Below are positions 32,322-47,729 of a stretch of DNA of 64,000 nt, piece by piece. The notes under the pieces are model-generated. The model was not told the DNA's origin. It saw only the letters and a program-made list of their open reading frames with translations, and did no database searches. The translations under genes were made by a program, and so were the position numbers. Position 1 is the stretch's first letter, and every line of letters starts with the position of its first letter. Source of the DNA: Lachnospiraceae bacterium (GTDB taxonomy: Bacteria > Bacillota > Clostridia > Lachnospirales > Lachnospiraceae); the NCBI GenBank assembly GCA_017618195.1, contig JAFZUW010000070.1:62001-126000 (forward strand), in the 5' to 3' direction.

Positions 32322-33524
32322 TCACTCTCCGTCCGCCCGTTCCGCCTTCCTTCCGAACATCCGCGGCATCGTCCAAAGCCGTGTCGCGCAGGCAAATACG
32401 ACGAGCATCAGGACGTAGAACACGGTTAAGAAGAACGGGAAGGACCTCATTCCGAGCACCTGCCCGATCAGACCGCATAAGATCGGTCCGGTTATGATCG
32501 CGAAACTGGAAACCGCCATCTGCGTTCCGATGATGGCGGGCGAACGGCTCTCGCCGAAATTCTCGGGCGTCAGATAATTGAAGTTCGGGAACATCGGTCC
32601 GTTTCCGAGCCCGATCAGCATAAGCGCCGCGATCGTCACGATGTTGTTCGGAACGAAAATCAGCAGCAGGAGCGCCGCTCCGAGTATCAAAAGACCGGTT
32701 TTGATGATCTGCCAGCTGTGAAGCCTGCGGGCGAACACACCCGACAGCAGTCTTCCTATTGTCATTCCGAGATAATAAAACGTTACGCTTGCGGCAGCCA
32801 TCTCGTTGTTCAGATGCCTGTGCTCGACAAGGAACGTGCTGCTCCAGCTTCCGACCGAAACCTCGATCGTTACCGAGCAGATGAAGAGAAGCCACATGAT
32901 CTTAACGCCTTTGATCGCGGCAGCCTCCTTAAGCGAAAGCGTCTCGAATTTCTCTTCCGCCCCGGCTTCGCTGCCGTGAACCTTCCTCCACACCGGAAGC
33001 GTCACGATGATTAAAAGCGCCAGCCCGAGCTGAATGCCCGAAGCGATCCGGTATCCGCTTCTCCAGCCCATACCGCTTCGGAATACGAGCGTCATGATGA
33101 ACGGGCTTACCGTCACGCCGACTCCGTAGAAGCAGTGCAGAAAACTCATCTGCGACGCGCTGTAATGGAGTGCGACATAGTTGTTTAAAGCCGTGTCGAT
33201 TGAACCCGCACCGAGACCGAGCGGCAGGGAAAGCAGACACAGAAACAGGAAATTGTTCGAAAAGCTGAACCCGAACAGCGAAACTCCCGTAAGAAGCGTA
33301 CATGCCGCCGTAAGCTTATTGGTTCCGAGCCGCTTGATCAGCCGTGCGCTTAACAGACTCGATATCATCGTTCCGCTCGAGCAGATGCACGTGATCACTC
33401 CGCCGAGGGAGAACGGCAGCCCGAATTCGGTATAAACGGACGGCCAGGACGTTCCGAACAGGGAATCCGGGATTCCGAGGCCGACAAATGCGGCGTAGAT
33501 TACAATGATCAGCAATGTTGCCAT
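32322..33524 (-). CDS. MFS transporter
   Basis: 400 aa from ATG 33522-33524 (GAGGAAG 7 nt before); a longer in-frame extension to 33716 has no ribosome site and covers the promoter. Twelve hydrophobic segments; the first is MATLLIIVIYAAFVGLGIPD. MFS motif A is GTMISSLLSARLIKRLGTNK (loop 2-3). C-terminus is a basic tail, RLWTMPRMFGRKAERADGE. It looks like the YbjJ/FucP-related sugar or drug group, but the substrate is unknown. Followed at 24 bp by the MutS-like pair, possibly one operon. Confidence 0.92.
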   Translation of the reverse strand: MATLLIIVIYAAFVGLGIPDSLFGTSWPSVYTEFGLPFSLGGVITCICSSGTMISSLLSARLIKRLGTNKLTAACTLLTGVSLFGFSFSNNFLFLCLLSLPLGLGAGSIDTALNNYVALHYSASQMSFLHCFYGVGVTVSPFIMTLVFRSGMGWRSGYRIASGIQLGLALLIIVTLPVWRKVHGSEAGAEEKFETLSLKEAAAIKGVKIMWLLFICSVTIEVSVGSWSSTFLVEHRHLNNEMAAASVTFYYLGMTIGRLLSGVFARRLHSWQIIKTGLLILGAALLLLIFVPNNIVTIAALMLIGLGNGPMFPNFNYLTPENFGESRSPAIIGTQMAVSSFAIITGPILCGLIGQVLGMRSFPFFLTVFYVLMLVVFACATRLWTMPRMFGRKAERADGE

Positions 33525-33609
33525 AAACAATCTTCCTCTTGTGATATTCGCGCTCTTCTCTGCCGCCTGCACGCATTGTCGTTCCGGCATTCGCGACAGA
33601 TATAGAGTT

Positions 33610-33615
33610 ATTATA
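33610..33615 (-). promoter_or_regulatory. Extended -10 promoter element for MFS gene
   Basis: Minus strand TG-G-TATAAT (TATAAT at 33610-33615), 86 bp before the MFS ATG; no good -35 is seen, which fits an extended -10 promoter possibly needing an activator. Confidence 0.5.
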
Positions 33616-33674
33616 CCACATTTAACGCCCATATCATCCGAAAAATCAGCAGAAAAGAGGATTCTTTTTCTTTC

Positions 33675-33697
33675 GACAAATGGTATTACCATTTGTC
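33675..33697. repeat. Perfect 23-bp palindrome, operator-like
   Basis: GACAAATGGTA and its exact reverse complement TACCATTTGTC flank one central T. It is about 60 bp upstream of the MFS -10 element and lies in the non-coding gap before the MFS gene. Symmetry and A/T-rich centre fit a dimeric repressor or activator site; no regulator gene is adjacent. Confidence 0.7.
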
Positions 33698-33774
33698 CCT
33701 GTTCGGCCGTTCTCACACAAAAAGTTCATATTTTGAAAGAATTGCAACCATAGGACGTTGTCATCTGCAGACAG

Positions 33775-33932: not shown

Positions 33933-35309
33933 TCACGCATTTTCGGACTGCGCCGTTCCGGAATTGAGGAAACGATCCCTCCAGCCGTACTTGTACAGGG
34001 CGCACATGAACGGGTCGGGTCTGTCGGGCGAGCCGTTCTCGGTCATTGCGTATGCTCCGCATCCGGCGCCGCATTTTTCGAAATGCTCGCAGGCGGAACA
34101 CTCCGGGATATGCTTCAGACGGTCCTTCTTTCTGCGGCATACGAAATGCCTGAGGGCGGAATCCTTCCAGATTTCGGAAAGGCGGTCGCGGTACAGGTTC
34201 GGCATCTCCTCCATAAGGAACGAACCCGTGTAGCCGGTACACGGCAGCAGCGTGCCGTCGGGCAGAAGGAATATCTTCCACTGCGTCGTCGGGCACTCGA
34301 AGCTTTCCGGGGAATAGCAGTCTATTGTTTCACGGGAATATATCGGCTCATGGGCGTTGCCGTTGAAAAACTTTTCAAGCCCGATCGTGATCGGACGCCC
34401 GTCCGCTTCCCAGCGGCGTTTGAGATCAAGGCACAGTTCCGCGATCTCCTCGGTTGTCAGAGCGTCTTCACCGCCCTGCCATGCGCCCATCTTCTGCGGG
34501 CGGCTTACGAGCCATTCCTTGATTCCGCGGTTCTTAAGCCACTCATAGGTCGCCGCGGCGGTATAGCGGTTCTTTTTGGTAAACAGCGTGCATACGGACA
34601 ATTCGTGGTCTCTTTCGATTACCTTCTGAATGCCCCGCAATACGCTCTCCTCCAGGCCTTCGGTTCCGCGCATGAGGTCATGCGTTCCGATGCCGTCAAG
34701 ACTGATCTGGAATTCCGGCCAATGACCGCATTCCTTTAAGAAATCGATCAGATCGTCATCGATCAAAACGCCGTTCGTTACAATCAGGTTAACGATCATT
34801 CCCTTTTCCGTAATCGCTTTCACAATCTCACGAAAATGCGGGTGGATCAGCGGTTCCCCGCCCGTAATGGAAACCCGGAGCACGCCGGCTTCATAAAACT
34901 GATCGATCAGTTCCCTTGCCTGCTCTAAGCTGACCTGCCCGTACCGTCCTTCCGGAGCCTCCATAAAGCAATGCGGGCATTTCATGTTGCAGTACCCGGT
35001 AATTGCCCAGTGGATCTCGGTCAGAAGCGGTGAGGGAATAATCCGGAACATCTGTCCGGGTTCATTTGTTTCTCCGAAAGAGCACTCTTCCACGATGCCC
35101 TTTTCCATTAATCCTCTTAAAATATTACGATGCACGGGAAGGAACGCGAGGGAATCAAAGTCACTGTTTCCGTCACAGTTTCTAAGCACATACGCCTCCT
35201 GTTCGTCCGGATAATCCTGCATCGGATATTTCCGGTTCATGAGCATCAGCCGGCCGTCACTGAACTGTCTCAGCGCCCACAAATGCCGCAAACGTGCGTA
35301 TGTTCCCAT
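33933..35309 (-). CDS. SPASM radical SAM enzyme with PqqD/RRE-like N-terminus (paralogue A)
   Basis: 458 aa from ATG 35307-35309 (GGGGGAA 4 nt before). Residues 1-95 contain AYVLRNCDGNSDFDSLAFLP, a compact winged-helix-like unit shared with the other cluster enzymes and shaped like a PqqD peptide-recognition element. Radical SAM Cys are C107, C111, C114 in GYCNMKCPHCF, with GGEPLIH downstream. The C-terminal SPASM domain has PDGTLLPCTGY and CSACEHFEKCGAGC, then C near DPFMC, enough for two auxiliary 4Fe-4S clusters. Such enzymes install carbon-sulfur, carbon-carbon or epimerised links in RiPP precursors. Follows the YcaO-like gene on the same strand. Confidence 0.93.
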   Translation of the reverse strand: MGTYARLRHLWALRQFSDGRLMLMNRKYPMQDYPDEQEAYVLRNCDGNSDFDSLAFLPVHRNILRGLMEKGIVEECSFGETNEPGQMFRIIPSPLLTEIHWAITGYCNMKCPHCFMEAPEGRYGQVSLEQARELIDQFYEAGVLRVSITGGEPLIHPHFREIVKAITEKGMIVNLIVTNGVLIDDDLIDFLKECGHWPEFQISLDGIGTHDLMRGTEGLEESVLRGIQKVIERDHELSVCTLFTKKNRYTAAATYEWLKNRGIKEWLVSRPQKMGAWQGGEDALTTEEIAELCLDLKRRWEADGRPITIGLEKFFNGNAHEPIYSRETIDCYSPESFECPTTQWKIFLLPDGTLLPCTGYTGSFLMEEMPNLYRDRLSEIWKDSALRHFVCRRKKDRLKHIPECSACEHFEKCGAGCGAYAMTENGSPDRPDPFMCALYKYGWRDRFLNSGTAQSENA

Positions 35310-35415
35310 AAAATTCCCCCTTCGCCGTGAAAACGGCCTTTCTGTATGTAAGGTATTCGTTCCGCGTATGCCGGAATGCTCTTTCGCATGCGGCATTCCT
35401 TTATCCGATTAACGG

Positions 35416-36219
35416 TCAAGCGGTATAATAATCGCTCTCTGTGTTCCAGCCCGGGTTCGGCTCGTCCAACAGGACCCGCATTACCGATAACCCTTCCACG
35501 GATATGTCCTTTGCCCGGATTACGGTATGATAGCGCTTGGCCATAGCAAGGTATTCGCCGATTGCCTCCGCGGTGCTTCGGTAAAATCCGGACGAAGCGG
35601 GATACGACGGATCATCATCCGAATAAGCCGGAATCCCTTCCGGTTTTCCAAACAGGCGTCTGCGGATATCCCGCGAGATGCAGTCAAGAACCGCTTCTTT
35701 CCACGTCGTGCCGGCTCCGGGGACAAGCTGCCCGTCAATCTGCAGGGCAAGAACCGGATACCTCTTCAGCATTCCGCAGTCCTTAACGGAAACGTCCATG
35801 CCCGCCGAAAGGTATCTTTCCCGATAGGGCTCCCAAAAACCGGGGATTTCTTCCCCCGCGTCCGGAGCAACCAGGCGGACGCTTTTCAGTTTGAATCGCA
35901 TTGCACAAATGAACAGGTCCTGCCAGGCGGCGGCAAGCGCATCTTCTCTCGTACTGCCGCATCCGAGTCCCGGAAAGCCGTTCTCCGGCATAAGGGACGC
36001 GCAGTGAATTGCCGCAGCAAGCTTCCGCAAGGTCTTTTCAAGAGCCGGACCCGCTTCCGTATCCGCGGACCACGCCTCCGTTCCCTCGAGCCTTGCGCGG
36101 CACCAGTAAAGTCCTGTCACTTCATCCTGCCCCTGTTCTACGGCGGCGGTTTCGGCCACCCAGCTGCGAAACGGGGCAAACAGGTCTCCGTTTTTTGAAA
36201 AATTCAATGAATTTAACAT
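35416..36219 (-). CDS. Degenerate YcaO-like protein
   Basis: 267 aa. Three blocks run in the same order as in the YcaO enzyme at 40341-42149: GLGCGSTREDALAAAWQDL matches GNTPLEAIVHGISEIAERF; YLSAGMDVSVKDCGMLKRYP matches RPLGYRYEIRDCSLGIGLP; PGAGTTWKEAVLDCISRDI matches GADPRAHVALERCLTEI. The acidic E-x-x-E-R site of the true YcaO is not kept (W-Q-D-L-F here), so ATP activity is doubtful. It might be a partner subunit or an inactive peptide-binding copy. It shares the -10 region of its promoter with the divergent radical SAM operon. Cytoplasmic. The family call is an inference by eye. Confidence 0.55.
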   Translation of the reverse strand: MLNSLNFSKNGDLFAPFRSWVAETAAVEQGQDEVTGLYWCRARLEGTEAWSADTEAGPALEKTLRKLAAAIHCASLMPENGFPGLGCGSTREDALAAAWQDLFICAMRFKLKSVRLVAPDAGEEIPGFWEPYRERYLSAGMDVSVKDCGMLKRYPVLALQIDGQLVPGAGTTWKEAVLDCISRDIRRRLFGKPEGIPAYSDDDPSYPASSGFYRSTAEAIGEYLAMAKRYHTVIRAKDISVEGLSVMRVLLDEPNPGWNTESDYYTA

Positions 36220-36228
36220 AAATGTCCC

Positions 36229-36257
36229 TTTACATTTGTTCCCGTTGATTATATAAT
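36229..36257 (+). promoter_or_regulatory. Promoter of the B-C-D-YcaO operon
   Basis: TTTACA (36229-36234), 17-nt spacer, perfect TATAAT (36252-36257), 117 bp before the first enzyme ATG. Strong by sequence, and it overlaps the opposing promoter. Confidence 0.85.
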
Positions 36258-36284
36258 TCTATAATACAGCGACGCATTTTTCAA
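36256..36284 (-). promoter_or_regulatory. Divergent promoter of the degenerate YcaO-like gene and SPASM A
   Basis: Minus strand TTGAAA (36279-36284), 17-nt spacer, TAGAAT (36256-36261). Its -10 shares bases 36256-36257 with the plus-strand -10, so the two RNA polymerase sites exclude each other. Confidence 0.75.
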
Positions 36285-36374
36285 GTGCTTACTTTTAAAA
36301 ATTTTTACAAGTTTATTTCCTGTCATTTTTCTAAAAACCGTTATTTCTACTTATATTTCAATAAAAGAGGTTTC

Positions 36375-37652
36375 ATGCGATACTATTATTTGAAAACAAA
36401 TGCCTGCGATTCGGAAAACCTTTCCGCGGACCTTCGGTATGTTCTCGACGCCATGGACGGATATACAAATTTGAACAGTTCGGCTTTTCTGCCGAAGCAT
36501 CGTGCGATTGCCGAAGAACTCTGCCGTAGAGGTGCGGCGTTCCGCTGTGCCCGCGGTTTTCGGGGAACTTCCCCCGGCCCGATCCGCGGCGCATATTGGG
36601 CGATCACGGGTTTCTGCAACTTACGATGCACCCATTGCTACATGTCGTCACCCGTCAATCATCCGAAACCTCCGGAACTGAAACGCCTTATGACGCTTGC
36701 CGACCGGCTTGCTTCGGGCGGAGCCGTCGAACTGATTCTGACCGGCGGCGAGGTATTTTCTTATCAGCAGCTTCCGGAACTGCTCGATTATCTCGAGGAG
36801 TCCGGTTTTTATGTTTCCAATATTCTTACAAACGCCACACTTGTTACGGAGTCAACTCCCGCACTGTTTACGGACCGCGACATGTTTCCCCGTTTTCACG
36901 TAAGTTTTGACGGAGTCGGTCATCACAGCCGGTTCCGCGGCGTTATGGATGCGGAGGAGCGGACGCTTCGCGGAATCCGGATTCTGAAAGACGCCGGGTT
37001 TCATGTCGGCGTCAACACAAGTATCGATGCGGCCAATCTGACTTCGCTTCCGGCCACCTACGAGTGCATGAAGGAGCTCGGTGTCGACGAATGGGGCGTT
37101 GCAAGACCTCTCCGGTTCGGCTGTGCCAAAGGAATGAGCATTCCGTCAACGGATGCATTTGCCGCGGTATGTACCGATTTACAGGAACGCTGGCTTGCCG
37201 ACGGACGTCCCATGACGCTCGGCCTCGAAGGTCTCTATTCCTACCGCCCCGGAGCTGTGCGCACAATCCGCCCGTTTGACGGCAATCAGCCGTCGTGCTG
37301 GGAATGCAGGGACTATCCGTACCTTTCGGACAAAGGTCTTCTGATGCCTTGCTCCGCATATACCGATTCGCCGGTCTCGGATTCCTTCCCGGATCTTTCC
37401 GCCATGGAATTCGAGGATGCGTGGAACTCCGAATTCCTGCAGAAGGTCATGTCGATCACGCCTGAGGACGTGATGGCTCATTCTCCGGAATGCCGGACAT
37501 GCGAATACCTTTCCGAGTGCAAGACCGGATGCCGCGCAAGCGCCCTCATCAACGCCGGCTCCGTTTACGCGGCCGACCCCTACAACTGCGAAATCCTGAA
37601 GCGTCAGATGCAGAAACAATATTATCAAAGGGAGAAAGAACATGGAGAATAA
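36375..37652 (+). CDS. SPASM radical SAM enzyme (paralogue B)
   Basis: 425 aa from ATG 36375 (AAAAGAGGTTTC before it; a longer in-frame ATG at 36285 lies too near the promoter). N-terminal unit is shorter than in the others: YVLDAMDGYTNLNSSAFLPK with D-G at 28-29. Radical SAM Cys C81, C85, C88 (GFCNLRCTHCY); the glycine motif is TGGEVFS. SPASM: CWECRDYPYLSDKGLLMPCSAY and CRTCEYLSECKTGCRASA, ending YNCEILK. First gene of a four-gene operon. The next enzyme starts 10 bp before this stop. Confidence 0.93.
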   Translation: MRYYYLKTNACDSENLSADLRYVLDAMDGYTNLNSSAFLPKHRAIAEELCRRGAAFRCARGFRGTSPGPIRGAYWAITGFCNLRCTHCYMSSPVNHPKPPELKRLMTLADRLASGGAVELILTGGEVFSYQQLPELLDYLEESGFYVSNILTNATLVTESTPALFTDRDMFPRFHVSFDGVGHHSRFRGVMDAEERTLRGIRILKDAGFHVGVNTSIDAANLTSLPATYECMKELGVDEWGVARPLRFGCAKGMSIPSTDAFAAVCTDLQERWLADGRPMTLGLEGLYSYRPGAVRTIRPFDGNQPSCWECRDYPYLSDKGLLMPCSAYTDSPVSDSFPDLSAMEFEDAWNSEFLQKVMSITPEDVMAHSPECRTCEYLSECKTGCRASALINAGSVYAADPYNCEILKRQMQKQYYQREKEHGE

Positions 37653-39036
37653 CGGGTCCTTATATGCTGTATTGAATGACGACTGGGTGCTTCGCGGCTG
37701 GAGTAATCTCGAATGTGCCCTGGTGAATTGGCATACGAACGAGATGGAGTATCTGCCGCCGGACGAAAGGCATGTTTTGAAATCCTGTGACGGCCGCCAT
37801 GATTTTCATTCCGCCCTGTTTCTGCCGGTCCATCACGTCCTGCTGGAAAAATATACGGAAAGAGGAATTGTACGGCAGTGCCGGGAAGGTGAATGCACAA
37901 TCCACCCGGCGCAGGCATACCGCCGCGCAGACTGCCCGGTAACCAAAAGCGTTCTTTGGTCCCTTACCAACAACTGCAACTTCCGCTGCCGCCACTGCTA
38001 CATGTCGGCGCCGCAGCGTGCCTATAAGGAGCTCAGCCGCGACGAGCTGTTCTCGGTTCTTGACAAGCTGGAAGCGGCCAATGTGCCGGACATCTCATTT
38101 ACCGGCGGCGAGCCGCTGCTTCGACCGGAACTGCCGGAGCTGTTACGCCGCATGAAGGAAAAGCACATCAATTTCACGGAAATCTTTTCCAATGCCTCTC
38201 TGGTTACCGATGAGATTCTCGATGAGATCGAAGCAATCGGCTACATGCCCGCCTTCAAGGTCAGCTTTGACTGCATCGGAACCCATAACTACATGCGCGG
38301 CGTTCCGTTCGCGGAAGAGCAGACGCTCCGCGGGATCCGCACGCTGACGAGGCGCGGGTATACGGTAATCATCATCTCGAGCGTCGATTCGGTCGTACTT
38401 CCGCAAATCCCGGAAACGCTTGACGCGCTGATCGATCTCGGCGTCGACAGCTGGTGGATCTCGCCTCCGGTTGAGGTCGGCGTGTGGAAGGGAAGCCAGA
38501 CGAAATCCAATCTGAACGATACGATCTCCGCATTGAAAAACCTCGCAAAACTGTGGGTGGACCGCGGACGTCCGATTGAGCTTCTGCTCTGGTATTTCGG
38601 AATCTTTAAGCGGAAAGGAAGCGAACAGCTGCATGTCGGAAACGGACGGCTGTTCGTGCCCGAAGATTACGAATGCCTTGCCTGCCACTACTATCCGTAC
38701 GTTGCCCCGGACGGCAAAGTCCTTCCCTGCGGAAGCTATATCGGAACCGAGATCGCAAAGCCCCTTCCGAGCCTGACGGACATGACGTTCGCGGAAGCAC
38801 TGAACGACGCCTCGCTGAGACGGTACTGCGACATGAAAAAGGATGAAATCTGGAACAACAGCGAATCCTGCCGGTCATGCGCACATTTTCCGGACTGCGG
38901 AGGCGGCTGCCGGATTGCCGCGTTCACCGAAACGGGCGATTTTCTGCACCGCGAGCCGACCAAATGCGCACTGTTCAAGGGCGGTATCCGGGACAGCTTC
39001 ATCGAATACGTAAAGGAGCTTGTATCCCATGAATAG
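37642..39036 (+). CDS. SPASM radical SAM enzyme (paralogue C)
   Basis: 464 aa; ATG after AAAGGGAGAAAG. N-terminal RRE-like unit: HVLKSCDGRHDFHSALFLPV (CDG at 49-51). Radical SAM Cys C112, C116, C119 (NNCNFRCRHCY), GGEPLLRPEL. SPASM: CLACHYYPYVAPDGKVLPCG and CRSCAHFPDCGGGCRIAA, then TKCALF. It overlaps B by 11 bp and D begins inside its last codons. The N-terminus ALVNWHTNEMEYLPPDERH aligns with D and A, showing that the paralogues arose by duplication. Confidence 0.93.
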   Translation: MENNGSLYAVLNDDWVLRGWSNLECALVNWHTNEMEYLPPDERHVLKSCDGRHDFHSALFLPVHHVLLEKYTERGIVRQCREGECTIHPAQAYRRADCPVTKSVLWSLTNNCNFRCRHCYMSAPQRAYKELSRDELFSVLDKLEAANVPDISFTGGEPLLRPELPELLRRMKEKHINFTEIFSNASLVTDEILDEIEAIGYMPAFKVSFDCIGTHNYMRGVPFAEEQTLRGIRTLTRRGYTVIIISSVDSVVLPQIPETLDALIDLGVDSWWISPPVEVGVWKGSQTKSNLNDTISALKNLAKLWVDRGRPIELLLWYFGIFKRKGSEQLHVGNGRLFVPEDYECLACHYYPYVAPDGKVLPCGSYIGTEIAKPLPSLTDMTFAEALNDASLRRYCDMKKDEIWNNSESCRSCAHFPDCGGGCRIAAFTETGDFLHREPTKCALFKGGIRDSFIEYVKELVSHE

Positions 39037-40348
39037 TCTCTACGCCCGAATCGGGCGCAACTACATATTGCGCGGCTGGACCGACTGTCCCTTCGCGCTG
39101 ATCGAACGGTGGTACGGCCAGGAATTCTTCCCCTGCGAAGAATACGCCTACGTGCTCCGCTCCTGCGACGGCCGCTGCGACTTTTCCTCTCCGGCCTTCA
39201 CGCCCGCCCATCGGCGTCAGCTTGACTTTCTCGTCGGCAAAGGCTACGCGGAAATCTGCGAATACGGCGACGGTCCGGATCCCGTTCAGAATTATCGGTA
39301 CACCCCGTGTCCCCGTCTCTATAGCTTGAGCTGGGCAATCACCGATGCCTGCAATCTGCACTGCGTACATTGTTTTATGGAATCTCCGGGCAAGACCGCC
39401 CCGGACGATGCGAAAAGAACAGACCGTCTTCTTAAGGAAATCCTTCGGGCAAATGTACCGTTTGTGTCACTGACCGGAGGAGAGCCGTTACTGTCTCCTC
39501 ATTTTCCGAAAATCGTACGCGAATTGAGCAAGGCAGGCGTGCGGATCACGGAAATCTCCACGAACGCAACGCTTCTAAACGACCGGGTGCTGGATCTCTT
39601 TCTTCAGTACGGACAGCACCCGGATCTGCTGATCAGTTATGACGGCTGCGGCGTTCACGATACAATCCGCGGTGCACGCGGACTCGAAGAAAAGGTACTC
39701 CGCGCGGCAGAGCTCGCCCTCTCCCGCGGCTTTGCCGCCGTCATGGTAACTACCCTCATGGCGCAGAACATCGGATCGCTTCCCGCCACCTACGAACGGC
39801 TCAAGGCACTGAAACCTTCCGGCTGGTTCGTCAACCGCGCACAGTCAACCGGGCTTTACAAAAACGAACACCGGCTGACAACCGCCGAGGCTGCGGAAGC
39901 ATGTGCCGAGGTCCACGAAATGTGGCTGCGGGACGGTCGTCCCTTCCCGGTCATGTTCGAACAGTTCCGGCCGGCGGAACGGAAGACCGCTTTCACCGCG
40001 GACAGCCCGGAATGCTCCGGTACTACGTGCGGCGCGTTTCTTCTGCCCGACGGAACGCTGATGCCGTGCCCCGGATTTGTTACCACGCCCATACAGAACG
40101 AGATGCCCAACGCTTTGGAACTCGGTCTCCCGGAAGCCTGGAGCTCCGATTCGATCGTCCGTTTCCGAAATGTCCGCAAATCGGTCCGGCTTGAAAAGAA
40201 TCCGCAGTGTGCGGCATGTCCGAATTTCGAAGAATGCGGTATGGGATGCCGCGCTTACGCATTGACCGAAACGGGATCCATTGACAGCCGGGATCCCGAT
40301 CTGTGCGACATCTTTACCAATAACCGGAGGAATGCTTTCCATGAGTGA
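39029..40348 (+). CDS. SPASM radical SAM enzyme (paralogue D)
   Basis: 439 aa from ATG 39029; AAAGGAG sits 10 nt upstream, whereas an in-frame TTG 9 nt earlier is too close to it. RRE-like unit: YVLRSCDGRCDFSSPAFTPA. Radical SAM Cys C108, C112, C115 (DACNLHCVHCF), GGEPLLSPHF. SPASM: GTTCGAFLLPDGTLMPCPG and CAACPNFEECGMGCRAYAL, ending DLCDIF. Start overlaps C, and the YcaO start overlaps its stop by 8 bp, so the enzymes are made in step. Confidence 0.93.
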   Translation: MNSLYARIGRNYILRGWTDCPFALIERWYGQEFFPCEEYAYVLRSCDGRCDFSSPAFTPAHRRQLDFLVGKGYAEICEYGDGPDPVQNYRYTPCPRLYSLSWAITDACNLHCVHCFMESPGKTAPDDAKRTDRLLKEILRANVPFVSLTGGEPLLSPHFPKIVRELSKAGVRITEISTNATLLNDRVLDLFLQYGQHPDLLISYDGCGVHDTIRGARGLEEKVLRAAELALSRGFAAVMVTTLMAQNIGSLPATYERLKALKPSGWFVNRAQSTGLYKNEHRLTTAEAAEACAEVHEMWLRDGRPFPVMFEQFRPAERKTAFTADSPECSGTTCGAFLLPDGTLMPCPGFVTTPIQNEMPNALELGLPEAWSSDSIVRFRNVRKSVRLEKNPQCAACPNFEECGMGCRAYALTETGSIDSRDPDLCDIFTNNRRNAFHE

Positions 40349-42149
40349 GAACAACAATCGTCCTTATAAATGCGCCGATCCGCTTTCCACCATTAACCGC
40401 GTGCGGCAGGCGCTGGAGCGGTGCGGTCTTTTTACCATCGAAAAAGGCTTTTACCATCCGTCCGCCAATGTTGCCTGTTCCCGCGTGATGCTCGGCGATG
40501 AGGAACTGCTTTCCTTCGGTGTCGGCACAAACGGCAAAGGGATGAATATGCGGTACGCGCTCGCAAGCGCATACGGCGAGTTCCTGGAACGGCTTCAAAA
40601 CGGAATGCTTTTCCCGAACCGCCAGCTGCAGTTTTCCCCGAACGGACTGTTCCGCTTCGGACCGGACGAGATTCTATGCACGCCGGAGGAAACCGTCGCG
40701 GAGTGCGGCGACATCGTGCGTGAAATCTTCAACCTTTCAACGGATGCGGATGCCCTGAATCTGTTAAAGCAGGCGTTCGGAGATAAGCGTGTGCTCTGCG
40801 CCCCATTTGCCGACATAACCGGAGGATGTGTCCGCAACGTTCCGATCAAGCTGTTTTACAACACAAGCGGCACCAACGGCATGTGCGCCGGCAATACGCC
40901 CTTGGAAGCGATCGTTCACGGCATAAGCGAGATTGCGGAGCGCTTTGCCATGCGTGAAATCTACATGGAACGCATTACTCCCCCGATTGTCCCGCCGGAA
41001 TGCTTCGAAGGTACCGTCATCCATTACCGTCTCGAAGCGATGCGGCCGCTCGGCTACCGTTATGAAATCCGCGACTGCTCGCTCGGAATCGGCCTGCCGG
41101 TGATCGGGCTCCTTCTCTTCAATGAAAAGGGGGAGCACACCTTCCACCTCGGAGCAGATCCTCGTGCGCATGTCGCTCTTGAGCGCTGCCTGACCGAAAT
41201 TTTCCAGGGAAGCGAGGAGGATATCGCCGAGCGTTTTACGGCCGAAACGCTTCCTTACCCGGAAACCAAAACGGAGAAGAATCTCTATTGCCGCCAGTTC
41301 AGCGACTCCACGATCCGCGGAACCGGTCTGTGGCCTTCAAGCCTGTTGAACGAGCAGCCGTCCTATCCTTTCGAAGGGCTTTTCCCCGCCGGAAACAGCG
41401 ACGAGGAGGACTTTTCCCTGCTGTCGTCCCGCCTTGCGGAGCTCGGGTACCGGCTCTTTATCCGCGACTGCTCCTATCTTGATTTCCCGGCGTATTTTGT
41501 TTATATCCCGCGTATGAGCGATCTCGATTTCATTTACGACGACGGCGGCGATTTTATCCGCGCCATGCGCCTTGTCGGGATGCAGCGGACCTTCATCGGC
41601 CCGAGAAGCGCGTCTGAAAAAGATCGCCGCACCTTCGCCGAATGTCTTGACCGATATCTTCGGGAAAATGTGTCCGCTCCGGTCAATCCGGTTCAGTTCT
41701 TCCTTTTGAACAGTTCTCCGTCCATGTGCGATGCGGATCCGTATCTGATTACGGCTTTGTTCACGGGAACCGGCGGTGATCCCGGACTCGCTTCCGAGTA
41801 CATGGAACAGCACCTTAAGAACAGCCCCGCAGCCGTACAGAACCGCAAGCTTTGTACCGCGCTTGCATTTTACTGGCACGAAAAGGCGCGCGGCGCCGAA
41901 GACGGCACGCTTCGCGAACTGCTCAGCCGGATGTTCGATCAAAAAACCGTGGACATTTGCTTTGCCCACGGTCTCAATCCCGGATTATTCGATTATTTTC
42001 TGTGGCCGGAATGTTTCCGCTGCGGCCAATGTCTGCGGCGTTCCACCTGCATGTATGACCGGCTCGTTGAAATCCTTACGCCGATTCAGCAGATATACCG
42101 GGAGCACACTCCGGATCAGGAAGCGCTTCTGTCACTGCTTACTTTTTGA
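40341..42149 (+). CDS. YcaO-domain enzyme
   Basis: 602 aa from ATG 40341 (GGAGG 10 nt before; the closer ATG 9 nt upstream has a 1-nt spacing). YcaO enzymes use ATP to activate backbone amides of RiPP precursors, giving azolines, thioamides or amidines. Blocks: GTNGKGMNMRYALASAYGEF (residues about 54-73), NTSGTNGMCAGNTPLEAIVH then SEIAERF, IRDCSLGIGLPVIGLLLF, GADPRAHVALERCLTEIFQG. The 220-residue C-terminal part repeats a RLFIRDCSYLDFPAYFVYIP block and ends in ECFRCGQCLRRSTC, four closely spaced Cys that could bind a metal. No cyclodehydratase partner (ThiF/E1-like) or TfuA is in the window. Confidence 0.93.
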   Translation: MSENNNRPYKCADPLSTINRVRQALERCGLFTIEKGFYHPSANVACSRVMLGDEELLSFGVGTNGKGMNMRYALASAYGEFLERLQNGMLFPNRQLQFSPNGLFRFGPDEILCTPEETVAECGDIVREIFNLSTDADALNLLKQAFGDKRVLCAPFADITGGCVRNVPIKLFYNTSGTNGMCAGNTPLEAIVHGISEIAERFAMREIYMERITPPIVPPECFEGTVIHYRLEAMRPLGYRYEIRDCSLGIGLPVIGLLLFNEKGEHTFHLGADPRAHVALERCLTEIFQGSEEDIAERFTAETLPYPETKTEKNLYCRQFSDSTIRGTGLWPSSLLNEQPSYPFEGLFPAGNSDEEDFSLLSSRLAELGYRLFIRDCSYLDFPAYFVYIPRMSDLDFIYDDGGDFIRAMRLVGMQRTFIGPRSASEKDRRTFAECLDRYLRENVSAPVNPVQFFLLNSSPSMCDADPYLITALFTGTGGDPGLASEYMEQHLKNSPAAVQNRKLCTALAFYWHEKARGAEDGTLRELLSRMFDQKTVDICFAHGLNPGLFDYFLWPECFRCGQCLRRSTCMYDRLVEILTPIQQIYREHTPDQEALLSLLTF

Positions 42150-42181
42150 TGCACCCGGAAGCGGGGCGAACCGTTCGTGAG

Positions 42182-42724
42182 TCACCGCTTACCGTCTGAT
42201 TCATTCGGAAGTCGGGCGATCAGTTCGCGGAACCGTAACGGGGTGTCCTTGTCCGCACGCCTGAGAAAGCCGGAACCGCGGACAAATTTCGGAAGTTCCT
42301 CATAATCGAGGATTCTTTCCGCGGTCATCATGCCGGAAGCGGAAAAACAGTGCTTCAGGCGCTCACAGCTGATCAGCATCGCCGTATTTCCGTTGTCGGA
42401 CCAGATCTCCGAATAGAGCGCAAAGCATCCGCCTTCGTTAAGAAGGCCGCGAATCCTTTCGGCAAATGCATCCTCTTTGAGGATCAGCATCGGCGGAGCC
42501 GGAAAAACAGAATAGATAACATCATATCCCCCTCCCATATCTCCATACAAACTGTCCTGCAGGAAAGAAACATTATGCCTGCAGGACAGTTTCTTTTTTG
42601 CGTCCTCGATACATTCCCGCGAAGGTTCCAACCCGACGATTTCCGACTTGTCATCATCAAATGCCGCGATTTCTTCGCCTCTTCCGCAGCCGATGAAAAG
42701 GATCCTGGCCTTTGTTTCCGTCAT
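42182..42724 (-). CDS. Small SAM-dependent methyltransferase
   Basis: 180 aa with motif I ILFIGCGRGEEIAAFD at residues 9-24, an acidic IVGLEPSREC second strand and YDVIYSVFPAPP where motif II lies. Short for class I enzymes. CGGAGGATGACAT precedes the ATG. It is the last gene of the precursor-peptide strand, after a terminator hairpin, and it converges on the YcaO gene (32 bp gap). It could methylate the peptide, but that is inference. Confidence 0.8.
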   Translation of the reverse strand: MTETKARILFIGCGRGEEIAAFDDDKSEIVGLEPSRECIEDAKKKLSCRHNVSFLQDSLYGDMGGGYDVIYSVFPAPPMLILKEDAFAERIRGLLNEGGCFALYSEIWSDNGNTAMLISCERLKHCFSASGMMTAERILDYEELPKFVRGSGFLRRADKDTPLRFRELIARLPNESDGKR

Positions 42725-42751
42725 ATGTCATCCTCCGATTTATGAAACAAA

Positions 42752-42791
42752 GCGCCCGAGAACCGGGCGTATAAACCGGGTTCTCGGGTGC
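42752..42791 (-). terminator. Terminator after precursor genes
   Basis: Minus strand GCACCCGAGAACCCGG and CCGGTTCTCGGGCGC form a 15-bp stem around a TTTATACGC-type loop, followed by TTTGTTTC. It ends the short precursor transcript; the methyltransferase lies beyond it. Confidence 0.8.
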
Positions 42792-42830
42792 TGAATGCTT
42801 CCTTTTGAGCGTGCTTCGTCCGTTCAAAAA

Positions 42831-43151
42831 CTAGCGCTGCTTGCCGAGATAGTGGCCGAGGAAGGTACCGCAGATTTCGGTACAAACCTTTGTACAGCCG
42901 GGCTTGGGTTCGGGGCAGTCACCGTTTCTTGCTCCGGAAATCTGCTCCAGCTCTTCTGCGGAAAGGTTTGCCTGCTCCGTATAGAACTTTTTGAAATCGT
43001 CAACGGATACGTCAAAGCCGTTCTCCTTCGCGATCTCAACAACCTTCTCGGCAACGCTCAACGGCGCGCCTTTGATCCCCATAACCTTCTCCTTCAGGGC
43101 ATCGTCTTCCATAACCTTTTTGTAGAATGCTTCTACCTGCTGAATTGCCAT
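42831..43151 (-). CDS. Nif11-leader RiPP precursor peptide 1
   Basis: 106 aa from ATG 43149-43151 (AAAGGAGAAACAAGGCT). Residues 1-73 are a Nif11-type leader: MAIQQVEAFYKKVMEDDALK, then GAPLSVAEKVVEIAKENGFD and LSAEELEQISG. The core after G-A (residue 74) is C-rich: Cys79, 86, 90, 94 in GDCPEPKPGCTKVCTEICG, then TFLGHYLGKQR. The leader is nearly identical to that of peptide 2, while the N-terminal part of the core differs and the last 16 residues do not. This is a substrate for the neighbouring radical SAM and YcaO enzymes. Confidence 0.93.
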   Translation of the reverse strand: MAIQQVEAFYKKVMEDDALKEKVMGIKGAPLSVAEKVVEIAKENGFDVSVDDFKKFYTEQANLSAEELEQISGARNGDCPEPKPGCTKVCTEICGTFLGHYLGKQR

Positions 43152-43230
43152 AGCCTTGTTTCTCCTTTGTTTTCTTTTTCCACAAAAACGCATTTTCATG
43201 CGTCAATGTTCTCTCTTGGCGCGCATCACA

Positions 43231-43554
43231 TCAGCGCTGTTTGCCGATATAATGTCCGAGGAAGGTACCGCAGATTTCAACACAACTCTTGGAGCAGTTC
43301 GGATCCTGATGGAGGCACTCGCTCCAGCCTAACCCTCCGGAAACCTGTTCCATTTCTTCAGCGGACAAATCTGCCTGCTCCGTATAGTACTCTTTAAAGT
43401 CATCAACGGATACGTCAAAACCATTCTCCTTCGCGATTGCAACAACCTTCTCGGCAACGCTCAAAGGCGCGCCCTTGATACCCATAACCTTCTCCTTCAG
43501 GGCATCGTCTTCCATAACCTTCTTGTAGAATGCTTCTACCTGCTGAACTGCCAT
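43231..43554 (-). CDS. Nif11-leader RiPP precursor peptide 2
   Basis: 107 aa from ATG 43552-43554 (AAAGGAGGAACAATGTT). Leader MAVQQVEAFYKKVMEDDALK as in peptide 1, ending LSAEEMEQVSGG, a classic double-Gly site. Core: LGWSECLHQDPNCSKSCVEI, then CGTFLGHYIGKQR; Cys80, 87, 91, 95. The spacing C-x6-C-x3-C-x3-C is the same as in peptide 1 although the residues between differ, which means the Cys positions are under selection. 80 bp from peptide 1. Confidence 0.93.
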   Translation of the reverse strand: MAVQQVEAFYKKVMEDDALKEKVMGIKGAPLSVAEKVVAIAKENGFDVSVDDFKEYYTEQADLSAEEMEQVSGGLGWSECLHQDPNCSKSCVEICGTFLGHYIGKQR

Positions 43555-43603
43555 AACATTGTTCCTCCTTTGCCTTTTCGTTTTTCTATACTGCAACGCA
43601 TCT

Positions 43604-44983
43604 TCATGCGTCAGGTTCTTTCGTATACTTCTTAACCAATTCGTTCAAACGGTCAGAGAAACCTCCGAAGAAATATGCGCACCGCATCGGATCGGTTCCG
43701 CACAAGTCACCGGACAGGCCGTACGCCAGCGCCCGGCACCCGCCGCAGCAGGCATCCCGGTACGGGCATTCGCGGCACTTTGCATTGACGCGGTAGATGT
43801 CTTCCAGTTTCAAAAGCGTCCAATCCGTCAATTTGGATTCGGAGAGAATCTTTTGTAAAGGGTCCTTCTTAACATTCCCCATACTGATTCCCTTCATCAT
43901 GAGGAAGCCCGAAACCGGCATGCACGGAGCCGCCTCTCCCGACGCGCCGATGAAGAAATTATCATGTGCATCCTGACATGCAGTCCATTTGCCGCTGCAC
44001 GGCCCGGTATTATGCATGGGCCGGATCAGAATATGCCCCTCTTGGTAAGTGTATTGCAGCATCCGCCACACACGAAAGTTGAGCGTTCCGCCCTCTGCCG
44101 CATAGCGTTCCGTCAATTTCAATCCGGCATCATAATACTCTTCAAACGTAAGCGTCTGATCAAGATACTGCTCTGCCCATCTCGGTGCTTCGCTTGCACG
44201 CATGAACCGCATGGAACTGATTCCGCGGGTTTCAAAATACTTGAGCGTGTCCCACATCCTGTCCGTGTTTCCGCGGTATACGCACATCTGTACCGACACG
44301 TCAAAACCCGCACCGACGATGCGGTCAATCTGATCAAGCGTCTTCTGCTCGATTCCTTCGGCATTCCTAAGCCAGTCATGGGTTCCCAATCCGTCAAAGC
44401 TGACGGTGAAAAGCGGGTCAACCTTCAGTTCCTTTAAACGTTTGAGAAACGTATCGGTGACCAGCAGTCCGTTTGTTACAATTCTTCCAATCTTTATATC
44501 GCTGCGGGAAAGTTCTTCAATAATCTTATCAAGTTCGGGATGCATCAGCGGTTCGCCGCCCGTCAGGTCAACTTCATGAACGCCGCACGCCTTCAGCTCG
44601 CCGATCAGCTTCTTCGCTTCTTCCAAGGTGAAGCGGTCGGCGGTACGGTTTGCATCCTTTGCGGCAAAACAGTGCCGGCAGTTCAGATTGCAGGCCGAGG
44701 TTACCGCCCAGGTCACAGTACGGAAATAACGGTTGTCATAATAGACATAGCGCTGTGATTCCGAAACGGGAATGGGTTCCGGAGAGCCTTTCAGAATATT
44801 AAGGCTGCATAACCGTTTAATCGAATCGGTCAGCGGCATATCCGTTGAACCGTCACACGTCCCGATTAAATCGGCATCATCTTTGGACAGAACACTGAGC
44901 GAGCCGACAACCCGGTGATACAACAGATACGGAAGTCCGCGGTAGCCGCATATCCTGTAATCCGGATTTAATGCATAAAACAA
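43604..44983 (-). CDS. SPASM radical SAM enzyme (paralogue E), precursor-linked
   Basis: 459 aa from TTG 44983, which has GGAGGG 7 nt upstream; no ATG is nearby. It starts FYALNPDYRICGYRGLPYLL; RRE-like unit has LIGTCDGSTDMPLT (CDG 43-45). Radical SAM Cys C98, C102, C105 (SACNLNCRHCF), GGEPLMHPEL. SPASM: CSGKWTACQDAHDNFFIGAS then PCMPVSG, and CRECPYRDACCGGCRALAYG, ending PMRCAYFF. It is the most divergent paralogue and sits directly upstream of the two precursors, so it is the best candidate for the first modifying enzyme. Confidence 0.92.
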   Translation of the reverse strand: MFYALNPDYRICGYRGLPYLLYHRVVGSLSVLSKDDADLIGTCDGSTDMPLTDSIKRLCSLNILKGSPEPIPVSESQRYVYYDNRYFRTVTWAVTSACNLNCRHCFAAKDANRTADRFTLEEAKKLIGELKACGVHEVDLTGGEPLMHPELDKIIEELSRSDIKIGRIVTNGLLVTDTFLKRLKELKVDPLFTVSFDGLGTHDWLRNAEGIEQKTLDQIDRIVGAGFDVSVQMCVYRGNTDRMWDTLKYFETRGISSMRFMRASEAPRWAEQYLDQTLTFEEYYDAGLKLTERYAAEGGTLNFRVWRMLQYTYQEGHILIRPMHNTGPCSGKWTACQDAHDNFFIGASGEAAPCMPVSGFLMMKGISMGNVKKDPLQKILSESKLTDWTLLKLEDIYRVNAKCRECPYRDACCGGCRALAYGLSGDLCGTDPMRCAYFFGGFSDRLNELVKKYTKEPDA

Positions 44984-45031
44984 GGCTGGTCCCTCCGTCG
45001 GTTTTAGAATTTTAAATATCTTAATATGAAA

Positions 45032-45060
45032 ATTTTAACATTGAAAATTTCATAAGTCAA
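45032..45060 (-). promoter_or_regulatory. Promoter of the precursor operon, inside an inverted repeat
   Basis: Minus strand TTGACT (45055-45060), 17-nt spacer, TAAAAT (45032-45037), 49 bp before the TTG of SPASM E. The region 45025-45054 is an imperfect inverted repeat (TATGAAAATTTT and GAAAATTTCATA, plus strand) covering the -10 and spacer, and a perfect ATGTTTAAACAT palindrome stands at 45090-45101. Both look like operators. Confidence 0.75.
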
Positions 45061-45461
45061 TACTGATGTTTCATATTTTTCCATGTATGAATGTTTAAAC
45101 ATATGAAAAACAAGACAGTGCAAAAGACCCGCCCGCAGTTTCTTTGAGCAGTACCCGGAATTCTCGTAAAAAGGGCATTAAAAAGGGTGGCGCTCGCAAC
45201 ATATAGTGTCTGCAAGCGCCTGTTTATCTATAATTTATATGGTTTTTCCGATTTCCGGAAGCCGGCGTCCGCTGCCTCCGACGGCCTTCTTCCCGCTGCC
45301 TTTCCGCGGACATCCCGCATTCTTATGGAAAATGCGAAATTTTTATATATTTTCGTGCTTGCATTTTTACATAGGAATCGGCGTGAATGTTAAATTTATC
45401 AAATATCTTTCATTTCTGCATTCCGTTATTTCACTTTTTAAACTAAAAACTTGCAAAAAAC
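45061..45461. other. Non-coding, A/T-rich gap
   Basis: About 400 bp without a supported gene between the precursor operon and the HemN-like gene. It contains the ATGTTTAAACAT palindrome (45090-45101), a hairpin GGCGCT-C-GCA...TGC-A-AGCGCC (45190-45221) and several long A/T runs. Short open frames occur but have no ribosome site or recognisable family, so I leave them out. Confidence 0.6.
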
Positions 45462-45564: not shown

Positions 45565-46818
45565 TCACAGCGTAATCTCCTTCGGAAAAGCCTCTTTCCG
45601 CATAATGCCCCACATCTTGTCGATATAGGCAAGCGTATAGAAGTTCTCATAGTAATGATAATAGAATGCTCCCTTCAGCGTCATCACGTGGACTCCGCCG
45701 CGCTTCTTCGTAAAGCCGAACAGCTGCGCCGCCTTGAGCTCAAATCCGTACATTTTCTTAAGCGGAACACCGAAGAACCGCTCGAACGCCTCCGGATCCA
45801 CCTCGGTACTGTACGCGGTCCAGAACAGATAGTATACCATGCGCTGTCTTCGCGTAAACCGAAGCGTAAGCGATGTCGGAAGCGTCTCCTGCAGGATTCT
45901 TTCGCAATATGCGTCCACGGAAAATGTGTTGATCTTAAACCGGTCTTTCAACAGCGTCGTGGCCGAACACCCGAAGCCGAGGAAATTGTCTCTTGTCATC
46001 GACGAATACTTCGCCTGCTCTTCGCTTGAAAAAGTCCAGATCGTGCTCCGCTTATACCCCTTCCTCGCGCAGTAATCCGTAATGCTGTCAAGAAGAAGCC
46101 GTTTCTCTTTCTTGGGCATCGCCTTTACGGGACTCTTTGTAAACGTAAAATCGATAAACGGATAGATCGCGACATGGTTCGCCCCGATACGGAACGCTTC
46201 GTCGACATCCGATTTGAGGTCTTCAAACGTCTGTCCCGGCAGGGCAAAGATGAAATCCATCGAAACCGTTTCGAAAGGCACTTGCGAAAGCGCTTCTCTG
46301 AGCTGCTCCGGATTGACTGCCGCGCGTCCGAGGATGCTCTGGTATTTGCCGAGAAATGACTGGATCCCGATGCTGATTTTCGTCACGCCGGCATCCTTCA
46401 GCTTCCGGAGCACATCCGGCTTCACATTGTCCGGATGCAGCTCTAAACCGATGCCTTCGGTAATCGTAAAATACTCGTTCATTGCCGCGATGATCTCTTC
46501 GAGGCGGTCTGCTGCCAGCGCAGGCGTTCCGCCGCCGAAATAAAGGCTCGTGACCGTCTTCTTTCCGGGGTAAGTGCTTCCGACCATATGAATCTCGCGA
46601 AGGAGCGCGTCGATATAGCGGTCGCACGTCTCACGGTCATACTTCACCTTGCAGTACGGACAGAAATTGCAGATGCTTTTGCAGAACGGAATATGTACGT
46701 AAAGTCCGAGGTTTTCACAGTCGCCGTACGGAAGCACCTCGTCATATTCGTTTCTAAAACGGAACGGCTTAAACGATCTCGTAAGCCACATTCTTGTCAA
46801 GTTTGTAATGATGCTCAT
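45565..46818 (-). CDS. HemN-like radical SAM protein
   Basis: 417 aa. Radical SAM Cys in HIPFCKSICNFCPYCKVKYD near residues 42-61 (C-x3-C-x2-C). SLYFGGGTPALAADRLEEII, TKISIGIQSFLGKYQSILGR and VSMDFIFALPGQTFEDLKSD are the HemN/HemW glycine and SAM-binding blocks. The C-terminal HemN domain is divergent. Proteins of this kind act in heme insertion, or as class C radical SAM methylases in natural product pathways; true oxygen-independent coproporphyrinogen oxidase is less likely because the gene stands with another radical SAM gene. AGGAGCGG before the ATG; 8 bp to its upstream neighbour. Confidence 0.88.
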   Translation of the reverse strand: MSIITNLTRMWLTRSFKPFRFRNEYDEVLPYGDCENLGLYVHIPFCKSICNFCPYCKVKYDRETCDRYIDALLREIHMVGSTYPGKKTVTSLYFGGGTPALAADRLEEIIAAMNEYFTITEGIGLELHPDNVKPDVLRKLKDAGVTKISIGIQSFLGKYQSILGRAAVNPEQLREALSQVPFETVSMDFIFALPGQTFEDLKSDVDEAFRIGANHVAIYPFIDFTFTKSPVKAMPKKEKRLLLDSITDYCARKGYKRSTIWTFSSEEQAKYSSMTRDNFLGFGCSATTLLKDRFKINTFSVDAYCERILQETLPTSLTLRFTRRQRMVYYLFWTAYSTEVDPEAFERFFGVPLKKMYGFELKAAQLFGFTKKRGGVHVMTLKGAFYYHYYENFYTLAYIDKMWGIMRKEAFPKEITL

Positions 46819-46826
46819 AACCGCTC

Positions 46827-47729
46827 CTAAATATACTTCAGATATGTTCTGAGCATCTCGCAGATGATCTTCGGATTGCCCTTAAATAACAGCGTATATT
46901 CCGCCACAAAGAAATATCCGCATTCTTCGCAAAGCCCCGGCACGTCGATGCAGCGACCGCATACGGATATTTTGCCGTTCTCGATTACGACGCATTGGTG
47001 GCAGGGAGTCGGGAAGCGGTTTTCAATCAGATACGGAAAGGCGCTCTTCAGGTTAAATACGGGCACCTTTTCCTTCATCATCTGTTTAATGACTTCGCAG
47101 CATTCGCGCTTTTCTTCCTTCGAAAGCGCAAGCTCACGGGTATCGGGGTACGGCGTATGGAAGTTAAAGGAGACCGCGCGCACATTTGCCGTATCCCTTG
47201 CAAGACGGCACACGTCGGCGACCGCGTCCTTGTTGATCTGATTGATCGCCATATAAAAGCAGATGTTGTCCGACGTCGCGTTCTTGATGTTCTCCATGAT
47301 CGTGTCGTACGTGTCGCCGCGCACCGCGTTGTGGCGTTCGCGGTCGCCGTCCAGGCTTAACAGGATCAGGTCCGCTTCCGGCAGATCTATCGGAAAAGTC
47401 CCGTTGGTTACGACGTTCACGATCAGGAATCCCATCTGCTTCGCTTCGCGGACAAGGTCGCGGATGGTCTTCTCGCCGTCCCGCCAAAGAAATGTCTCGC
47501 CGCCGCAGAAGAACAGAATCCTGACTCCCATATCGTAAAGCGTCTTCATCTCGCCCATAATCTGTGCGTACGGATGCATGACGGCCGTAATGTTGTTAAC
47601 CGAGCAGTGTCTGCATTTTAAATTGCACCGATCCGTAACAATGACCGTGCCGAGAATCGGGTCCTTCTTCCGGAACAGGATCGTCTTGATCCCGAATCCG
47701 GCAAACCGCAAGAACGATGTTACTTTCAT
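46827..47729 (-). CDS. Radical SAM protein, short
   Basis: 300 aa. VTDRCNLKCRHCSVNN near residue 31 gives C-x3-C-x2-C; ILFFCGGETFLWRDGEKTI is the GGE block; LILLSLDGDRERHNAVRGDT follows. The C-terminus has six or more Cys: FPTPCHQCVVIENG, VCGRCIDVPGLCEECGYF, room for another Fe-S cluster like a shortened SPASM. GGGGGAGAAAC precedes the ATG. Middle gene of a three-gene run; product unknown. Confidence 0.9.
   Translation of the reverse strand: MKVTSFLRFAGFGIKTILFRKKDPILGTVIVTDRCNLKCRHCSVNNITAVMHPYAQIMGEMKTLYDMGVRILFFCGGETFLWRDGEKTIRDLVREAKQMGFLIVNVVTNGTFPIDLPEADLILLSLDGDRERHNAVRGDTYDTIMENIKNATSDNICFYMAINQINKDAVADVCRLARDTANVRAVSFNFHTPYPDTRELALSKEEKRECCEVIKQMMKEKVPVFNLKSAFPYLIENRFPTPCHQCVVIENGKISVCGRCIDVPGLCEECGYFFVAEYTLLFKGNPKIICEMLRTYLKYI

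Follow-up and report, generated by a model that had tools for sequence, protein, structure and literature searches.

A Nif11-leader peptide gene cluster with three conserved radical SAM-SPASM enzyme types and a YcaO in a Lachnospiraceae genome and distant Bacillota

In a 64,000-nucleotide stretch (the window; contig JAFZUW010000070.1, positions 62,001 to 126,000) of the Lachnospiraceae bacterium assembly GCA_017618195.1, positions 33933-44983 hold ten genes, all with open frames, that form a locus for a ribosomally synthesized and post-translationally modified peptide (RiPP). It combines two precursors with Nif11 leaders, five radical S-adenosylmethionine (rSAM) enzymes with SPASM domains, a YcaO, a degenerate YcaO-like protein and a class I methyltransferase. 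An earlier sequence-only reading of the window had proposed that Nif11, SPASM and YcaO genes are combined here, and this observation is confirmed by profile matches and by seven loci in other genomes that share the same core set of genes in the same order. We conclude that the locus belongs to a real, conserved family of Nif11 RiPPs with a constrained core.

The two precursor genes lie in tandem on the minus strand. Precursor A (106 aa, 42831-43151) consists of a Nif11 leader, an ISGA junction and the core RNGDCPEPKPGCTKVCTEICGTFLGHYLGKQR, and precursor B (107 aa, 43231-43554) of a Nif11 leader, a VSGG junction and the core LGWSECLHQDPNCSKSCVEICGTFLGHYIGKQR; their starts were revised to 43151 and 43554, respectively. 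Six compared relatives carry GG at this double-glycine-type junction. The Nif11 assignment made from the letters alone held up, with both peptides scoring above the cut-offs of PF07862 (47.0 and 46.6 bits, cut-off 23.8) and TIGR03798 (57.5 and 59.5 bits, cut-off 32.3), and these are the sole Nif11 matches across the host genome. The two copies share 89% DNA identity in the leader stretch and 74% in the core stretch. The ratio of nonsynonymous to synonymous substitution rates (dN/dS) between them is 0.25 over the whole gene (leader 0.10, core 0.53); this points to purifying selection, so both precursors are kept as proteins.

A non-exhaustive, YcaO-based scan of one genome for each of 84,980 species, using exact short peptide patterns, returned 59 loci. 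Seven of these (L049, L050, L051, L052, L053, L055, and L084) carry a Nif11 precursor, then rSAM genes of three types (A, B, and C), and finally YcaO, in one order; in L049 a further precursor separates the first two SPASM genes. The hosts are four metagenome-assembled genomes (MAGs) of the Limiplasma group (L050, L051, L052, and L055), assigned to Clostridia/Eubacteriales incertae sedis in the NCBI taxonomy (three checked), a Heliobacteriaceae MAG, a Clostridia MAG, and a Desulforamulus. Because the four Limiplasma-group loci are alike, the carrier lineages number about four. The A-B-C order with YcaO is conserved across distant genomes. Gene-by-gene reading of the other 52 loci covered L054, L056, L057, and L058; eight of the 52 (L054, L056, L058, L059, L062, L067, L068, and L098) match an rSAM protein of the window. 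No further A-B-C cluster was found besides the carrier in sets of 113, 396, 21 and 9 relatives of the carriers, the 396-genome set being sampled at the best four candidates or fewer per genome; single matches occurred in four genomes of the 113 set and three of the 396 set, the last three not read further. On viral contigs, 72 pattern matches yielded no confirmed cluster. The Desulforamulus aquiferis locus (L084, 5463-12183) has frame breaks in the precursor, A, C, YcaO and methyltransferase genes, for which decay and assembly error are indistinguishable.

Nine core sequences, picked by a pattern that fixes the cysteines and some Gly, Leu and Gln positions, give the 20-residue consensus C[AST][KRS][KSV]C[GHTV][EN][CIS]CG[LMT][FHL]LG[HTY][WY][ILMV]G[KR]Q. 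Condensed to CxxxCxx[CIS]CGxxLGx[WY]xG[KR]Q, it shows three invariant cysteines at four-residue spacing; the window cores carry one Arg after the 20-mer. Core cysteines number four in the window, three in L049, L053 and the L084 piece, and five in L050, L052, and L055. In 22 of 23 cross-lineage pairs, conservation is higher in the 20-mer than in the leader (means of 60% and 39%; the pairs are non-independent), the sole exception being the comparison of precursor A with the second L049 precursor. Judged from these alignments, the conservation of core over leader between lineages appears to be the reverse of the usual Nif11 pattern. PMC2887384 presents Nif11/NHLP precursors as a class in which a single set of modifying enzymes serves many variable cores; here, one constrained core, common to distant Bacillota, is the target of several specialised radical enzymes and a YcaO.

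All five SPASM paralogues named in the sequence-only reading were recovered with matches to the Radical_SAM and SPASM profiles, although the SPASM match of rSAM2 (15.6 bits) lies under the Pfam cut-off of 21.5. The three rSAM cysteines (CX3CX2C) and seven SPASM cysteines are kept in 25 of 25 aligned enzymes, including all five of the window, which are 24-39% identical to one another. The description as five paralogues for two precursors is better replaced by three conserved types, an extra copy of one of them, and a fifth enzyme of a kind found beside the exporter in relatives. On the plus strand, rSAM2 (36285-37652, likely start near 36375) is the type A enzyme, rSAM3 (37642-39036) type B, and rSAM4 (39020-40348) type C, the last by the tree and by a position equal to that of the type C enzyme in other clusters; the ends of these genes and of the YcaO gene that follows overlap. 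Clade A (support 100/99) has one member per cluster, and type B likewise forms an orthologous clade (100/100). On the minus strand, rSAM1 (33933-35396, start perhaps near 35309; PF04055 81.9 bits, SPASM 30.7 bits) is a second C-type copy beside rSAM4, to which it is 39% identical, and joins rSAM4 and the type C enzymes found in L050, L052 and L055 in one clade (87/89). The window A and B enzymes group with those of the Limiplasma-group loci (100/100 and 100/99), a tree pattern consistent with horizontal transfer.

The fifth enzyme, rSAM5 (43604-44983, minus strand), falls in a clade (100/99) with L120, L121, L016, and L036. Its relatives, at 34-35% identity, stand upstream of the NHLM exporter in three Limiplasma-group clusters, L120, L121 and L122 (the DNA upstream of L055, L050, and L051; L122 is outside the enzyme tree). 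An rSAM5-type gene and an extended core with an extra N-terminal cysteine co-occur in the window, L050, L051, and L055, and no rSAM5-type gene lies in the 16 kb upstream in L084, which has a bare core; L049, L052 and L053 end at contig ends, which limits this check there. The rSAM at L049 26-1294 is just 20-28% like the rSAM set. A radical SAM gene similar to B12-dependent methylases is also present in L049, L053 and L084; those of L049 and L053 gave no Pfam match to a B12 domain.

Among the 25 best NCBIfam families for each of the five SPASM enzymes, scores come to at most about one third of the curated cut-off. SkfB is the top match by sequence and by fold. The rSAM3 structure model aligns to SkfB from residue 13, to SuiB from residue 9 and to CteB only from residue 98, a comparison in which the part before residue 97 is barely tested. 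The Pfam search of the cluster proteins gave no PqqD match. At E ≤ 1e-45, rSAM3 has matches in 9 of 397 family genomes, a set spanning 334 genera: four in its own genome, two in G145, and one in each of seven others. More distant SPASM relatives adjoin other Nif11-like peptides as single or paired genes. Occurrence of SPASM genes away from these precursors, raised earlier as a possible refutation, thus gave a mixed picture: it is seen for distant relatives, but A, B and C were seen together only with this precursor family. Since the relatives are single or paired, the A-B-C set may have arisen by expansion from a one-enzyme Nif11 system. Two loci (L132, 9948-11868, and L131, 10753-12836) hold SPASM enzymes 52-53% identical to the L049 type C enzyme, and in L132 the enzyme adjoins a Nif11-like peptide with a Pro-rich core and without a GG junction.

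The YcaO gene (40341-42149, plus strand) looks intact (PF02624, E 1e-46). The protein matches E. coli YcaO (4q84) with 115 bits and keeps the motif glutamates and arginine, which we take to form the ATP site. It scores 152.5 bits against the E. coli YcaO equivalog NF040716, below the cut-off of 700, and 39 bits against SagD (cut-off 219). A C-terminal CxxCxxCx5C motif is found in the window YcaO, in all 10 intact cluster YcaOs, in the eight Bacteroidales YcaOs examined (four in L054 and one each in L056, L058, L059, and L067), and in those of L060, L061, and L071. It is absent from L057 (truncated), L063, L068, L075, L098, L105, L014, and L015, and one of two YcaOs in L012 lacks it while the other has part of it. 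In the midpoint-rooted tree, the cluster YcaOs and L057 share a clade (97/99) nested within a group that also holds Bacteroidales YcaOs (99/99). YcaOs of the window kind occur in 4 of 299 family genomes at E ≤ 1e-10, the host included.

The small methyltransferase (42182-42724, minus strand) gave weak profile matches (PF13649, 29.9 bits), and the stronger case for it comes from other clusters. Among YcaO, degenerate partner and METHYLTRANSFERASE, the YcaO frame of L053 runs into a homologue of the methyltransferase (773 aa), and a homologue adjoins YcaO in L049 and L084. The methyltransferase belongs to the system.

The 267-aa YcaO-like protein (35416-36219, minus strand) had no Pfam or NCBIfam match and is linked to YcaO by profile comparison only (hhalign probability 84-91 against YcaO sets). 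It scores 16.3 bits against the second YcaO of L050, L051, L052 and L055 and 4.3 bits against the first. The first ATP motif is gone and the glutamates of the second are changed, the arginine of the second being kept or lost according to the aligner's gap placement. That the protein is inactive, as suggested from the sequence, is plausible with most of the ATP site gone, but unproven: its AlphaFold2 model was uninformative (predicted local distance difference test 43.9, predicted template modelling score 0.30), and its placement in the YcaO tree is unsure (branch length 4.49).

On balance, we consider it probable that a hypermodified RiPP of the Nif11-leader type, with a constrained core of 20 C-terminal residues, is produced here through links set by the A, B and C enzymes together with YcaO and methyltransferase steps. 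The Nif11 leader would be held by a putative N-terminal domain of each SPASM enzyme that resembles a RiPP recognition element (RRE). Each of A, B and C would then be responsible for a single, specific radical link. In the simplest case this would be a thioether joining one of the invariant cysteines (CxxxCxxxC) and a residue of the GxxLGx[WY]xG[KR]Q tail, and rSAM5 would modify the additional cysteine in the N-terminal extension of the core. An ItfB-like YcaO might activate a backbone amide with ATP, and because no ThiF- or SagB-type partner lies in the cluster, we expect an amidine or thioamide rather than an azoline. The methyltransferase would methylate the YcaO product, and the degenerate YcaO would serve as a scaffold at best. 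For the relatives, cleavage after GG and export of the product can be expected from an NHLM exporter with a C39 peptidase; no candidate for this step was found in the C39 and NHLM searches of the present organism. We think it unlikely that every detail holds, namely a constrained 20-residue product in which three rSAM enzymes set one link each and the YcaO-methyltransferase pair makes a methylated backbone amidine, thioamide, or thioimidate. On that reading, so constrained a core would point to a defined function, such as a signal, metal carrier or cofactor-like peptide, and not to a combinatorial antimicrobial.

Three points weigh against this proposal. Between copies in the same genome, the core diverges more than the leader in both available pairs (window, core 16/20 and leader 66/74; L049, core 11/20 and leader 67/73), which speaks against a fixed core. 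A match of one enzyme per cysteine is suggestive only, for the counts do not agree. Peptide release in the host genome is unexplained. The earlier remark that no protease or exporter is adjacent extends to the whole genome: the C39 peptidase profile PF03412 had 0 matches (the same control matched in 8 of 14 genomes), and no NHLM exporter exceeded the cut-off (best TIGR03796, 359.7 against 853.3 bits). The relative L050, by comparison, encodes an NHLM_micro_ABC1 protein (904.5 bits, cut-off 853.3) with a C39 domain, and L055 and L084 carry relatives of it. Because no cognate peptidase-exporter was found, the peptide may act inside the cell in this host. The genome (2.75 Mb, 98.77% complete) is a draft of 82 contigs, so an exporter or peptidase was possibly missed.

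The radical enzymes could instead form C-C, C-O or C-N links, or epimers, at the Trp/Tyr and Arg/Lys residues of the tail, leaving the cysteines free or metal-bound and giving a cyclophane-like or metal-binding peptide. We regard this as possible but rather doubtful, for the three invariant cysteines are spaced by four, a pattern that resembles thioether RiPPs, and SkfB is the nearest match of the window enzymes.

It is also conceivable, though improbable, that the window holds a transplanted and partly decayed copy, its exporter and peptidase lost or never transferred and one YcaO decayed, from which little or no mature product leaves the cell. The missing exporter and C39 peptidase and the degenerate YcaO would fit such decay, as would the absence of the insertion from 21 congeners: in a 22-genome genus search (best 13 candidates or fewer per genome), none of the 21 other genomes had the cluster, and the cluster interval drew only two matches below 50 bases, both in G010. 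From this distribution, the cluster appears to be a species-level insertion. Against decay stand the ten open genes, enzymes as long as their relatives, intact cluster cysteines and purifying selection on the precursors, and the export gap was seen in a draft genome.

Least likely, and in our judgment quite improbable, is that the YcaO makes azolines or thiazoles from the cysteines, as in linear azol(in)e-containing peptides and thiazole/oxazole-modified microcins, while the rSAM enzymes act elsewhere; the Cys-rich core and other NHLP/Nif11 clusters with cyclodehydratases (in the parts of PMC2887384 and PMC4289311 at hand) would suit it, but the ten window genes gave no profile match to a ThiF/E1-like, SagB-like or dehydrogenase partner (the rest of the genome was not searched for partners), and the YcaO best matches the stand-alone E. 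coli YcaO. The ten window genes also gave no TfuA match, so the locus does not qualify as a thioamitide cluster.

Among known systems, the closest likeness is to ItfABD of Bacteroides (ItfB, ItfD, and the C39 exporter ItfE; PMC11002830, PMC10352776). According to the accessible text of PMC11002830, ItfB is a YcaO that carries a fused [Fe-S]-recognition domain and introduces an amidine into the backbone, and ItfD is an rSAM making a Trp-Ile link. Both systems apply a YcaO with a C-terminal Cys module and a SPASM rSAM to one peptide, and C39 ABC export is present in relatives of the window cluster. ItfABD differs, as far as those texts go, in having no Nif11 leader, one rSAM and a core ending in Ile-Thr-Phe, whereas in the window a Cys core goes with three conserved rSAM types and a methyltransferase linked to the YcaO. 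Compared by description alone, the Cys motif of the window YcaO fits an ItfB-like enzyme.

The NHLP/Nif11 clusters with NHLM exporters, as covered by the available portions of PMC2887384 and PMC4289311, share the Nif11 leader, the GG junction and, in relatives of the window cluster, the exporter. They differ in their hypervariable cores and SagCD-type cyclodehydratases, whereas here the core is kept better than the leader across lineages and the YcaO is of the stand-alone type. Several radical SAM genes close to Nif11/NHLP peptides of anaerobes were already noted in the 2014 survey PMC4289311, and this feature is therefore not new. The RRE-rSAM-SPASM maturases SkfB, CteB and SuiB share the fold and the 3 + 7 cysteines; identity is 14-20% on the model alignments, and the window differs in having several orthologous enzymes per precursor and a YcaO. 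E. coli YcaO, the S12 methylthiolation helper, is related in sequence and ATP residues and differs from the window YcaO in the latter's extra C-terminal Cys motif and peptide-cluster context. We found this cluster type and core undescribed in the literature within reach, which mostly excludes subscription papers and leaves novelty in print unsettled. The system offers a direct test of how work on neighbouring cysteines is shared among three paralogous SPASM enzymes, and of whether a YcaO and a methyltransferase act as a coupled pair.

The minus-strand genes form two groups, rSAM1 with the YcaO-like gene and, separately, rSAM5, precursor B, precursor A, and the methyltransferase. Three promoters had been proposed, and candidate sites, each by consensus match only, lie in two regions. 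The divergent region 36220-36350, between the YcaO-like gene with rSAM1 and the rSAM2-rSAM3-rSAM4-YcaO genes, has promoter-like sites at 36229-36257 (plus strand, 11/12) and 36284-36256 (minus strand, 10/12), and the region 5' of rSAM5 on the minus strand (44984-45130) has one at 45060-45032 (10/12, with TG before the second hexamer). The locus has 13 such sites, compared with 7.7 (standard deviation 2.7) in shuffled sequence, and this excess is weak evidence for promoters. A terminator-like stem, also a consensus match only, lies at 42753-42769 between precursor A and the methyltransferase gene, and may raise precursor dosage over the methyltransferase. No tRNA was found in the window.

The flanking genes appear to lie outside the cluster. 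The major facilitator superfamily (MFS) gene (32322-33716), named in the sequence-only reading as the only nearby transporter, stands beside MutS genes in congeners without the cluster and so is probably not part of it. An exporter role is disfavoured: in G013, which lacks the cluster, about 20 bases separate the MFS gene from a homologue of a second methyltransferase gene, MT2 (47752-49353). In two other congeners MT2 comes after the MutS genes, across a short gap in G019 and one of about 1.8 kb in G008 (the content of the G008 gap was not read). Two further radical SAM genes, rSAM6 (45565-46818) and rSAM7 (46827-47729), were rejected as cluster members together with MT2, for the three occur together without RiPP genes in G005 and G011. 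The counterparts of rSAM6 and rSAM7 in those genomes are 84% and 93-94% identical to them; the two have no Pfam SPASM match and were not seen between MutS/MFS and MT2 in three other congeners. MT2 looks like a fusion, in that four congeners match about residues 231-533 and not the N-terminal methyltransferase domain. Upstream, 29155-32297 encodes a tandem pair of MutS-like ATPases that, judged by cross-matches in congeners, are about 27-28% alike; MutS domain V was confirmed in the first.

Two other loci differ in architecture. L054 (1-21821, a Bacteroidales MAG) has four YcaO paralogues with the C-terminal Cys motif and two small rSAM-like genes. L012 (7000-17500), in genome G224 of the same family as the host, has two YcaOs and one rSAM together with five small genes in tandem, whose Gly/Ala-rich cores follow VAGG; the small genes look Nif11-like by eye, one matches precursor B by BLAST, and the cores are unrelated.

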